Source of the DNA: Luteimonas rhizosphaericola
Lineage (GTDB): Bacteria; Pseudomonadota; Gammaproteobacteria; Xanthomonadales; Xanthomonadaceae
Assembly: GCF_029888045.1 (NCBI RefSeq)
Contig: NZ_JARXRN010000025.1
Span: 1 to 64,000 of the forward strand
DNA length: 64,000 nucleotides
Direction: 5' to 3'
The notes beneath the pieces were generated by a model that had not been told where the DNA came from, did not search any database, and saw only the letters and a list, made by a program, of their open reading frames with translations. Position numbers and translations under genes: made by a program. Of the stretch, positions 1 to 26,940 are shown piece after piece. Positions within the stretch are counted from its first letter, which is position 1, and every line of letters begins with the position of its first letter.

Positions 1-72
1 GCCAACGCCGAGTGAAACAGCAAATCTTGGAGCAAGCAGAAGCTCTAAGAAGTCGGTCACGTCTAAAGCCAC
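1..72 (-). CDS. Partial integron-cassette protein, unknown function (runs off left edge)
   Basis: On the minus strand a GTG at 72-70 opens 24 codons that stay open to the edge of the window (begins MALDVTDFLELLLAPRFAVS). A strong Shine-Dalgarno AGGAGAG lies at 85-79, six bases before the GTG. The frame starts only about 20 bases past a GTTAGGC recombination core, which is where cassette genes normally begin. The stretch is visibly less GC-rich than its neighbours, as expected of an acquired cassette. The hydrophobic start suggests a small membrane or exported protein, but the function is not recognisable. The C-terminus is missing. Confidence 0.6.
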   Translation of the reverse strand, partial: MALDVTDFLELLLAPRFAVSLGVG

Positions 73-88
73 CAGAAACTCTCCTGCC

Positions 89-95
89 GCCTAAC
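89..95 (-). other. attI: Integron recombination core site (attI/cassette junction)
   Basis: On the minus strand the bases read GTTAGGC, an exact match to the GTTRRRY core at which integron integrases insert cassettes. It lies about 160 bases upstream of the intI start, facing away from it, with a less GC-rich cassette frame immediately beyond. This is the expected intI - attI - first cassette arrangement. The full attI extent (about 89-251) is inferred. The far attC of the cassette is outside the window. Confidence 0.6.
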
Positions 96-251
96 TACTA
101 ATAGACCCCACGCCGGGGCATAGCGCGACTTTGCGCGCGGGCGGTAAGGGAGTCAATCAGGTGTTTCCTACCGGAAACAGGGGCTTGCGCCGATAGGATC
201 GGTTGGCGGGTCCCGGATGATGGCGTGGATATCCGGCATGGAGGCCGAGTA

Positions 252-1259
252 ATGCGATATGACCGCGAGCATGCCGGCGTATCGGCAGCGCAGGGCGCCC
301 AGGGGCGGCCGCGCCTGTTGGACGAAGTTCGAGCCCGGTTGCGGGTCAAACACTACAGTTTGCGCACCGAGCAGGCCTATGTGTACTGGATTCGCCGGTA
401 TATCCGCAGCTGCGGCATGCGCCACCCGCGGACTCTGGACGGTAGCGCGGTCGAGGCGTTCCTGACACGCCTGGCCTCCCAGGACAACGTCGCGGCCAGC
501 ACCCAGAACCAGGCCTTGTCGGCCCTGCTGTTCCTCTATCGCGAAGTCCTGGCGATGGAGCTCCCGTGGATGAAGGACGTCGTGCGCGCGAAGCGGCCCC
601 CGCGCCTGCCGGTCGTGCTGTCGGTGGGCGAGGTCGACCGCCTGCTCGCGCAGCTGGCCGGTCGCGATGCGCTGATGGCGGGCCTGCTCTACGGCAGCGG
701 CCTGCGCCTGATGGAATGCCTGCGGCTGAGGATCAAGGACGTGGATTTCGCGCGTGGAGAGCTGACGGTACGTGAAGGCAAGGGAAGCAAGGACCGGCGC
801 ACGGTGCTCCCGTCGCGGCTGCGCGAACCGCTGCAGCGTCAGATCGAGCAGGTGGCGCTCGTGCATGCGGAAGACGTGGCATCCGGGTTCGGTGAAGTCG
901 CGCTGCCGCATGCCCTTGCACGCAAGTATCCGAATGCCGCCACGTCCGCGGCGTGGCAGTACGTGTTTCCCGCTGCGCGGCGTGCCCGGGATCCGCGCGA
1001 CGGCAGGGCCAAGCGCCATCACCTGGACGAGAACGTGCTGCAGCGCGCGATCAGGCGCGCAGCGGCGCGCGCGGGGCTGGTGAAGCCCGTCACGCCGCAT
1101 ACGCTGCGCCACTCCTTCGCCACGCACCTGCTCGAGGCCGGGTACGACATCCGCACCATCCAGGAACTGCTGGGCCACAAGGATGTGGCGACCACGCAGA
1201 TCTACACGCACGTGCTGAACCGTGGCGCCGGCGGGGTGCTGAGTCCGCTCGACCGCTGA
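252..1259 (+). CDS. intI: Integron integrase IntI (tyrosine recombinase)
   Basis: A 335-residue tyrosine site-specific recombinase that inserts and excises gene cassettes at attI and attC sites. The SAM-like N-terminal domain spans about 22-105 and the catalytic domain about 120-325. All catalytic residues are visible: Arg152 (GSGLRLME), Lys180 (GKGSKDR), His283 and Arg286 (HTLRHSF), His309 (LLGHKD) and the nucleophile Tyr318 (TQIYTHV). The extra block at about 218-241 ([13 protein letters not shown]...QYVFPA) is the IntI-specific insertion that separates integron integrases from XerC/D. I chose ATG 252 because GGAGG at 240-244 sits seven bases before it; an in-frame GTG at 225 lacks such a site. 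The gene looks intact, so the integron may still be active. Confidence 0.95.
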
Positions 1260-1533
1260 GTCCCCGCGTCGTTCGGTGGTGTCACGACGTGGAGCATTTG
1301 AAGCAGGTGCGCGTTGCGGGTCCCGGGTCGACATCGTGTGCCCGCGCGCGGAATGACTTGTCTGCGGCCCCGACGGCCGGGACATCGCCTGGCAGCGCCA
1401 CGTCCCGTCGCTGCTCGCGGGTGCGGGGCGAAAGTCTCCGTCCTGACGTCCTGGTGGCTGCTTTGCGCAATGCATCGGTCAACCGCGCCGACGCTGCCCA
1501 CGGCGCGCGATTCGCATGCTAGCGTCGCCCGCG

Positions 1534-2496
1534 ATGCCCATCCTCCCGCTGCATCCGAAGCCGCTGCGGCGCATCCTGCCGATACTCGCCCTGCTCGTGT
1601 CGCCGGCAATCTGCGAACCGCTCTACGTCACCACCGACCATGTCGGCGACGGCAGCTTCACCGCGAGCATCGAAGGACCGGCCACCGGGCCGGATGGTGC
1701 GCTGTACGCGGTGAACTTCCAGCGCGAAGGCACCATCGGCCGCGTGACCGGCGGGCACGGCGATGCGCGCGTGGACCTGTTCGTGCAGCTGCCTGCCGGG
1801 CGCACCGGAAACGGCATCGTGTTCGATGCGGGCGGGCGGATGTACGTCGCCGACTACACCGGCCACGCGATCCTGCGGATCGATCCGCGCACGCGTGCGG
1901 TGGCGGTACACGCGCACGATCCACGCATGCACCAGCCCAACGACCTCGCCATCGCGCCCGATGGCACGCTCTACGCCAGCGATCCGCGCTGGTCGCACGG
2001 CGATGGCCAGCTGTGGCGGATCGACCGCGATGGCCAGGTCCACCTGCTGGAAACCGGCATGGGCACGACCAACGGCATCGAGGTCTCGCCCGACGGGCGC
2101 CGGCTGTACGTCAACGAGAGCGTGCAGCGCCGGGTCTGGGCCTACGACATCGATGCAGGCGGCGGCGTGTCCGGCAAGCGCCTGCTGATCGCCTTCGACG
2201 ACCACGGCCTGGACGGCATGCGCACCGACGAACGCGGCAACCTCTACATCGCGCGCTACGGCGCGGGCACGGTCGCGATCGTCTCCCCGCAGGGCACCCT
2301 GCTGCGCGAGGTGGCGCTGGCGGGACGCAAGCCCACCAACCTCGCCTTCGGCGGCAGGGATGGACGCAGCGTGTTCGTGACCCTGCAGGACCGCGGCGCG
2401 ATCGAAACCTTCCGCAGCGCCCATCGCGGCCGCGCATCCGGCGGTGCATCCCTGGCGCTCACGCCGACGGCAGCGGCAGCCCCCGGAACGCCTTGA
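1534..2496 (+). CDS. Secreted SMP-30/gluconolactonase-like beta-propeller protein
   Basis: A 320-residue protein with a Sec-type signal peptide (about 1-27: basic HPKPLRR, a hydrophobic run, then SPAIC), so probably periplasmic; the Cys could also suggest a lipoprotein, but no clean lipobox is seen. The mature part carries repeated propeller-blade motifs such as GPDGALYAV, DAGGRMYVADY, APDGTLYAS, SPDGRRLYVNES and DERGNLYIARY. These are typical of the SMP-30/gluconolaconase/LRE family, which hydrolyses sugar lactones or related esters. The substrate cannot be told from sequence. An in-frame ATG at 1516 would add six residues. The 3' end overlaps the convergent Lrp gene by 38 bases. Confidence 0.75.
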   Translation: MPILPLHPKPLRRILPILALLVSPAICEPLYVTTDHVGDGSFTASIEGPATGPDGALYAVNFQREGTIGRVTGGHGDARVDLFVQLPAGRTGNGIVFDAGGRMYVADYTGHAILRIDPRTRAVAVHAHDPRMHQPNDLAIAPDGTLYASDPRWSHGDGQLWRIDRDGQVHLLETGMGTTNGIEVSPDGRRLYVNESVQRRVWAYDIDAGGGVSGKRLLIAFDDHGLDGMRTDERGNLYIARYGAGTVAIVSPQGTLLREVALAGRKPTNLAFGGRDGRSVFVTLQDRGAIETFRSAHRGRASGGASLALTPTAAAAPGTP

Positions 2497-25411: not shown

Positions 25412-26734
25412 CTACTCGGAGAGCTTGCGGATCAGCTTGTCCCAGTCTTCCCGCAACTTGCCGTCGGTTTCCATCAGGTTGCGGATCTGGCGGCAGGCGT
25501 GGAGCACCGTGGTGTGGTCGCGGCCGGCGAAGGCGTCGCCGATCTCGGGCAGGCTGTGCTCGGTGAGTTCCTTGGCCAGCGCCATCGCCATCTGGCGCGG
25601 GCGCGCCAGCGAGCGCGTGCGGCGCTTGGACAGCAGGTCCTTGATCTGCAGGCCGTAGTAGTCGGCCACCACCTTCTGGATGTTGGGGATGCCGATCGAC
25701 TGCTGCTGCGCGCGCAGCAGGTCGCGCAGGGTTTCCTGGGCGAAGTCGACGGTGATCGCGCGACCGGTGAAGTTCGCGCGCGCGGCGAGCGAGTTCAGCG
25801 CGCCCTCCAGGTCGCGCACGTTGCCGTGCATCTTCTTGGCCAGCAGGAACGCGACCTCGTCGGGCACCAGGGTGCCGCGCTCGCGCGCCTTGGCCAGCAC
25901 GATCGCGGCGCGGGTCTCGAAGTCGGGCGGATCGATCGCCACCGACAGGCCCCACGACAGCCGCGACTTCAGCCGCGGCTCCAGGCCGTCGACCTCTCGC
26001 GGATAGCGGTCGCAGGTCATGATGATCTGCTGCCGGCTCTCGAACAGCGCGTTGAAGGTGTGGAAGAACTCTTCCTGGGTGCGGTCCTTGCCGGCGAAGA
26101 ACTGGATGTCGTCGATCAGCAGCGCGTCGACCTGCTGGAACTGGCGCTTGAAGCGGTCGGTGTTCTTTTCCTGCAGCGAGCGGAAGAACGCGCTGTAGAA
26201 CTGCTCCGAGCGCAGGTACAGCACGCGCGCGGCCGGGTTGGCCTGGCGCATCGCATTGCCGGCCGCGAACATCAGGTGGGTCTTGCCCAGGCCCGTGCCG
26301 CCGTACAGCAGCAGCGGGTTGTGGGCGCGGTCGCCCGGCTTGAGCGCGGCCTGCCACGCGGCGGCGCGCCCGAGCTGGTTGCTGCGGCCTTCGACGAAGT
26401 TGTCGAAGGTGTAGTGGCCATCCAGGTGGCCGGCGAAGGCCTCGGGTGCCGGCCCACTCACCGCGCCGACCGCGGCCGGTGCCGGCGCACTCGCCGCGCG
26501 CGGCAGCGAGCCGATCTCCAGCGCCACCTCGCCGCTGCCGGAAAAATGCGTCAGCAGTTCGCGGATCCGCCCCAGGTACCGGCTCTCCACCTCGTCGCGC
26601 ACGAACGCGTTCGGCGCGTACAGCACGGTGCGGCTGTCGTGGCTGCGCGCCTGCAGCGGCTTGAGCCAGGTGTGCACGTCCTCGGCCGGCAGTTCGGCTT
26701 CCAGGCGTTCGAGGCAGCGGGGCCAGGCATCCAT
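25412..26734 (-). CDS. dnaA: Chromosomal replication initiator DnaA
   Basis: 440 residues, the AAA+ ATPase that binds DnaA boxes and melts oriC. Domain I (about 1-80; [32 protein letters not shown]) mediates self and helicase contacts; an Ala/Pro-rich domain II linker follows. Domain III has Walker [11 protein letters not shown], Walker [14 protein letters not shown] and sensor/arginine residues in [20 protein letters not shown]. Domain IV ends with the DNA-binding signature [18 protein letters not shown] 26734 gives [16 protein letters not shown] as in relatives; upstream in-frame codons overlap the promoter region. A weak -10 (TAGGCT) lies at 26814-26809 on this strand. Confidence 0.98.
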
Positions 26735-26871
26735 AGCGGTCAATGACGGCGAAAGCGGGGGCGGCCGGCGCGCGGTGCGGCCGGTCGTCGGGGGGTCGAG
26801 GGGAGGGCAGCCTACCACCCGCACCCGGGGTGCGCACCCGCGGCGGCCCGCCTGCCAGCGACGGGCCCGGG

Positions 26872-26901
26872 TTGACCACGGCGCCGGGCCACCGCTAGAA
26901 T
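26872..26901 (+). promoter_or_regulatory. Sigma-70 promoter for rpmH-rnpA
   Basis: TTGACC at 26872-26877 and TAGAAT at 26896-26901 are separated by 18 bases and lie 39 bases before the rpmH start codon. This is the best -35/-10 pair I found in the window. It is divergent from dnaA. Confidence 0.75.
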
Positions 26902-26940
26902 CGCCGGTTCTTTCCGCCCGCCGCATCGTCGCAGACCGCC

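Follow-up and report, generated by a model that had tools for sequence, protein, structure and literature searches.

Attachment sites without an adjoining integrase at conserved chromosomal loci in Luteimonas, and the single resident integron integrase that probably serves them

The DNA analysed here, called the window below, comprises the first 64,000 bases of contig C17 (641,926 bases) of Luteimonas rhizosphaericola (genome G000; G000:C17:1-64000), so that base 1 of the window is also the first base of the contig. Its left edge carries an integron integrase gene, an attI site with promoter-like sequences and the beginning of a gene cassette.

1-87, minus strand: start of the first gene cassette (its 5' part), truncated where the contig ends; a GTG open reading frame runs from 72 down to 1, 24 codons, and is still open there
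88-175, minus strand: attI plus putative Pc unit, oriented from Pc toward the cassettes (covariance model R2, 69.1 bits)
89-95, minus strand: recombination core GTTAGGC, read from the sequence; GTTAG is invariant among 31 integrase-adjacent attI sites
106-118, minus strand: CCCC/GGGG inverted repeat adjoining the core, conserved and with compensatory changes
128-156, minus strand: Pc promoter-like pair with -35 TTGACT (156-151), 17 bp and -10 CAAAGT (133-128), from the sequence, the alignment and a consensus test on related sites
225-1259, plus strand: intI, an intact integron integrase of 344 amino acids (GTG start; ATG at 252 possible), from profile and structure-protein matches
1516-2496, plus strand: SMP-30/gluconolactonase-like gene, a member of the conserved flank
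25412-26926, minus strand: dnaA, which marks the oriC region, named by recognition from its translation

The translation of 225-1259 matches the TIGR02249 integron integrase profile with 488.6 bits (E = 8e-147; cut-off 265) and also matches Phage_integrase and Phage_int_SAM_4. Its residues 32-344 align to IntI4 of 2a3v (E = 6e-89), and the alignment includes the additional IntI-specific domain as well as the residues that we take to be the catalytic motifs R, K, HxxR, H and Y. This agrees with a first-pass annotation of the same DNA, which had described a complete IntI with catalytic residues and IntI-specific insertion, a GTTAGGC core on the opposite strand with a reading frame just past it, and the order intI, attI, first cassette. 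Its placement of the locus about 25 kb from oriC is also correct, because gyrB, recF, dnaN and dnaA can be read from window translations at 19.8-26.9 kb.

The attI lies beside the divergently oriented intI, and the TTGACT-17-CAAAGT pair has the form expected of a cassette promoter. Model R2 finds no comparable site within the 64 kb, where the second-best match reaches 7.1 bits (E = 1.3). The attC searches gave 0 matches in the window, no LexA-type site was seen upstream of intI in bases 1-300, and a comparison of window bases 1-1500 with the whole genome reported no place matching bases 1-88. The window integrase is the single one found in the whole of G000 at E ≤ 1e-30.

Sedentary chromosomal integrons include the Xanthomonas ilvD integron and the Vibrio superintegron. 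The locus studied here resembles them in its IntI, attI and Pc and probably in a long array of species-typical attC sites. It differs in that its flank is not ilvD and in that several attI platforms per genome accompany one integrase. The first-pass annotation had likewise seen that the neighbouring gene is not ilvD, but the insertion context that it thought might be new is shared with two other genomes, G038 (86% identity over 11 kb) and G046, whose orthologous intI loci carry attC arrays. Judged by its sequence, the left edge of the window is the attI end of a sedentary chromosomal integron with an intact integrase, and taken alone it would be an ordinary one.

Sites of the attC type are abundant elsewhere in this genome. 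A pattern derived from contig C12 has 54 matches in G000 at up to three mismatches versus 0 for a reversed-pattern control. A covariance model built from 22 sites finds 71 matches at E ≤ 3.1e-13 on contigs C1, C8, C11, C12, C18, C25 and C27, of which a few may be counted twice because C11 and C18 have an identical 280-base end. The stretches scanned with it were the window and the small contigs, 20 kb from the start of C8 and of C12, 3 kb from the start of C24 and of each remaining large contig, and the final 7 kb of C12 and of C17. The possibility that C12 carries the opposite end of the window array was considered and rejected. C8 and C12 instead bracket a separate array beside a tRNA-Leu gene, and the two flanks of that array have their syntenic counterparts at a single locus in G038 and likewise in G046.

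The tRNA-Leu array has an attI of its own. Bases 1367-1413 of C12 repeat the window attI with 89% identity over 47 bases. This second site heads three attC (L006 2-963), and the two cassette reading frames closest to it encode COQ7-family and SMI1/KNR4-family proteins. On its Pc side about 300 bases lead to the tRNA-Leu gene, and tblastn found nothing significant that resembles IntI beside it. The region C12:1-1438 contains two or more attC and no nearby intI on the Pc side, the array side ending at the contig end, and would thus be classed as a CALIN. The usual reading of CALINs is that they are dead relics; second integrons would have been acquired or duplicated, lost intI and left decaying arrays. 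In accord with this, the DNA next to the C12 attI and the start of the window intI have an exact match of 14 bases, at a similar distance. Other blastn patches between the two are not significant (E = 0.56) among the matches listed.

Comparison of the tRNA-Leu locus in G000, G038 and G046 separates parts with different histories. Pairwise identities across the 49 bases that hold attI and the -10 region are 92, 96 and 88%. For the adjoining 42 bases, which include the -35 region, they are 93, 55 and 55%, the lower values being those against G046, with TTGAC kept. From there to the tRNA terminator the values are 80, 57 and 60%. On the cassette side identity is 33-46% and the cassettes are unrelated. 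All three species have this junction to the tRNA region without intI, so the absence of intI predates their divergence and the present first cassettes arrived afterwards. Within the array, G000 and G038 are 91% identical over 863 distal bases that include attC sites, whereas attI-proximal parts match in attC only. This polarity is what insertion at attI predicts, and loss in G038 could contribute to it. In two further genomes, G002 and G005, an attI likewise lies by this tRNA-Leu gene, with intervening DNA that is unalignable and leaves common descent unproven.

A pattern search allowing three mismatches missed a third platform in G000, and model R2 was built for this reason. R2 is a covariance model made from 31 integrase-adjacent (cis) attI sites only, the window's own included. 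Read toward the cassettes, these sites consist of GTAGGA, TTGAC, about 17 bases, a -10-like hexamer, the CCCC/GGGG repeat, TAnTAG-like bases and the core. An attI with no intI match (E ≤ 1e-60) within 1 kb is called an orphan. In an alignment of 80 cis and orphan sites (79 distinct), which was fitted to R2, the arms of the inverted repeat pair in 95.5% of cells versus a maximum of 83.1% for slid positions. Compensated cells number 19, where shuffles give 2.8 and slid positions no more than 14, and the covariation score is 0.230 versus a maximum of 0.060 for slid positions. The 31 cis sites alone give a slight signal, with three compensated cells. In the window, the repeat at 106-118 is predicted to fall close to where the Pc transcript begins. 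It may act as a stem at the mRNA 5' end, a paired protein-binding site or a folded form of attI. Pc-like pairs occur in 40 of the 62 genus orphans versus 3.2 in shuffles; excluded from this comparison were 11 rows, 7 orphan and 4 cis, that belong to seven genomes of other genera.

This anatomy bears on the idea that orphans are attG-like secondary sites, at which IntI used ordinary genomic motifs and likeness to attI arose as a by-product. Insertion at attG is known and is mentioned in PMC12444791. However, the conserved unit includes Pc-like hexamers and a covarying repeat, most of the 91 model positions lie on the non-cassette side, and the same loci are used across several species. The attG-like reading is strongly disfavoured, and we regard it as very improbable.

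Orphan platforms are widespread in the genus. Applied to 52 genus genomes at E ≤ 1e-5, R2 finds 32 cis and 52 orphan sites, one of the latter (in G007) being a 31-base match at a contig start. An intI is present in 40 of the genomes. At least one orphan occurs in 31, of which 23 have intI and eight have none that could be found at E ≤ 1e-60; cis site and orphan occur together in 21. The eight genomes imply that some platforms outlive the integrase, at least temporarily, as would be expected of relics. G000 itself has the site at C17:88 next to intI, orphans at C17:455478 and C12:1366, and a weak partial match at C12:168513. Five genomes (G046, G039, G047, G048 and G087) hold the cis site and at least one orphan on one long contig, and artefacts of contig edges therefore cannot account for the pattern.

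The orientation of these platforms is nearly uniform. It was scored on the set of 80 sites, which came from earlier attI searches and includes 11 sites outside the genus; some of the arrays end at contig ends. Within 1.5 kb, attC is found on the cassette side of 58 of the 64 orphans with enough sequence and on the Pc side of 2 of 69; the corresponding figures for cis sites are 7 of 8 and 0 of 11. The six orphans that lack attC include those of G136 and G083, which have weaker covariance-model matches, and the weak site at C12:168513. On the Pc side, a long IntI match is present at 11 of 11 cis sites and at none of the 69 orphans. Sixty-two orphans have no IntI match there, and seven have fragments of up to 111 residues from the N-terminal third, a point in favour of relics. 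Judged by their flanks, three of the 69 orphans (G024, G025 and G028) group with cis loci, and these three may be canonical loci after loss of intI.

In the wider family, 111 of 198 genomes have an attI site at E ≤ 1e-5, and by the per-genome table 60 have at least two; attC was looked at in a few regions of this set. An integrase match at E ≤ 1e-30 is present in 53 of the 60 multi-site genomes, and nine of the 53 have two or three such matches, some of them fragments. Two intI genes are seen in G023, G179 and G182, the two copies in G182 having identical match statistics. G179 and G182 are plain double integrons because both attI adjoin an integrase.

Several individual loci display other arrangements. 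Four attI-like sites with attC between them lie within about 13 kb of one contig in G041 (L322, C78, 2924-15706), as tandem platforms. In G022 (L309, C1:2977000-2992000), an orphan attI and its cassettes occur twice, 7 kb apart, with long identical blocks, looking like a recent tandem duplication. Contigs C29, C32 and C2 of G185 each have an attI next to the N-terminal part of a truncated intI, matched over 137-173 residues, and at E ≤ 1e-30 the genome yields no match to a full-length intI. G279 has four strong attI sites and one intact intI; a remnant with two stops lies beside another attI (C1:590864-591339). In G057, an attI near 5811 of L360 directly follows a gene whose translation reads as ilvD. 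No intI was matched in this genome at E ≤ 1e-60, and the site is a canonical-looking Xanthomonas-type locus that has kept attI and attC.

Orphan platforms recur at orthologous loci in up to eight species. At the eight-species locus, the attI and -10 region align cleanly and the DNA from there to the upstream gene does not. The stem variant at this orphan goes by clade with that of the resident cis attI. Four genomes with a CCGC/GCGG stem in their cis attI have the same stem at the orphan, three with a CCCC-type cis stem have a CCCC-type orphan (in G039 both stems are imperfect), and the eighth has no cis site. Across 42 orphans in 21 genomes, the mean similarity of an orphan attI to the cis attI of its own genome is 0.762 versus 0.641 in permutations, none of 5000 of which reached the observed value; four orphans (two in G041 and two in G022) were skipped, as no core could be placed. 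The resident cis attI ranks first of 26 for 19 of the 42 orphans (median rank 2) and lower for the other 23. Among the sites of G000, the resident attI ranks second for the orphan by the tRNA-Leu gene, 23 of 26 for the weak site C12:168513 and last, 26 of 26, for C17:455478. Recent duplication within a lineage would equally produce resemblance between cis and orphan attI at non-orthologous loci.

The cassettes next to these conserved sites turn over. First cassettes have no similarity in 50 of 51 pairs of orthologous orphans drawn from 11 clusters, a test that omitted the cluster G022/G022/G041 and a mixed cluster with cis loci. In the single pair that shares one, the first cassettes are 80% identical over 152 bases. 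Cassettes are also shared between arrays of one genome. In G046, the cis and orphan arrays lie 2.1 Mb apart and have one entire cassette in common, attC included, at about 99% identity, which drops inside the neighbouring attC. Matches between cis and orphan arrays reach 94% over 471 bases and 98% over 194 in G048, and 99.9% over 712 bases in G002, where they lie at two contig starts. Some of this turnover could come from homologous recombination. Sharing also occurs between species. A 232-base cassette stretch of G000 (L041 698-929) is identical to one in the orphan array of G046, a probable recent cassette transfer between genomes whose IntI are 83% identical.

Two explanations that deny present-day recombination at the orphans can be weighed against these data. 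If the platforms were dead relics, their attI should not be conserved where the surroundings are not, nor should its variants so often track those of the resident cis attI. The replacement of first cassettes at orthologous orphans and the near-identical cassette in both arrays of G046 argue against decay in the same way. The IntI fragments, the 14-base patch and the genomes lacking a detectable intI are on its side, and we consider this explanation unlikely. The second holds that Pc and the leader stem are kept for cassette expression, that recombination at orphan attI has ceased, and that turnover reflects homologous recombination of one array with another. The conserved parts do include Pc-like hexamers and the stem. 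The bases between the stem and the crossover point are conserved too, however, and often vary with the resident attI, whereas the -35 block at the tRNA-Leu locus diverges strongly from that of G046. At the common G046 cassette, identity is lost inside attC, the outcome expected of site-specific exchange, although repeated attC sites recombining with each other could also produce it. We give this second explanation a slim chance.

The reading that we favour, and consider probable, is that one resident integrase serves several attI platforms in trans and that the orphans descend from copies of the integron. Under this model, the integron end would have been copied to several chromosomal loci over time, and intI would have been lost from all copies but one; the N-terminal pieces that seven of the 69 orphans keep would be traces of this loss. 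Selection would keep orphan attI recognisable to the resident IntI. The remaining integrase would go on using every attI and inserting cassettes there, so that the newest cassette at an orphan is placed next to that platform's own Pc. Each platform would thereby lengthen and be renewed from the attI end, with a Pc of its own. Observed directly in the sequences are the anatomy and orientation of the platforms, their arrays, the absence of intI, the conserved orthologous loci, the frequent likeness to the resident attI, the turnover of first cassettes and the sharing of a cassette. That the integrase recombines orphan sites in trans, that orphan Pc are transcribed, that the platforms descend from integron copies and how such copies arose we infer from comparing sequences.

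Parts of this arrangement have been encountered before. According to passages of PMC12444791, about 50% of Xanthomonas genomes have CALINs that lie apart from intI at conserved loci, and those passages do not report a look for attI at them. The orphan arrays described here would score as CALINs and lie at conserved loci as in Xanthomonas. They depart from the definition of a CALIN, which is made without attI, in beginning at a conserved attI and Pc. The usual integron program misses attI outside class 1 (PMC9024848). One prophage CALIN with its own attI is described in part of PMC9892861. As the nearest precedent found, it combines one replicon, one integrase and a second array headed by an attI. 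It is a single case in one cryptic prophage, unlike a set of conserved chromosomal loci, and service in trans is not stated in that part of the source. Displaced attI copies can recombine when IntI1 is present, as sections of PMC12901181 report for the delta-attI gene cassettes and the attI1-flanked cassettes found in mobile integrons. These are also attI copies away from the usual place, but they sit within cassette arrays instead of forming separate platforms. No description of conserved multiple attI platforms under one integrase was found in the open-licence literature searched, including sections of PMC7148499 and PMC11089894.

The origin of CALINs, and whether they are alive, is an open question in the field. 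The multi-platform arrangement appears well supported by comparison among genomes, and the short attI model makes the idea directly testable across the family. For Luteimonas and its relatives, we lean toward a distributed integron in which one integrase would drive a set of conserved attI-Pc platforms, attI would evolve in concert, and many CALINs of the family would be live remote arrays. If integrase-less arrays do begin at real attI sites with promoters, cassettes could be gained and expressed at several places simultaneously, and each platform would let a different first cassette be strongly expressed.
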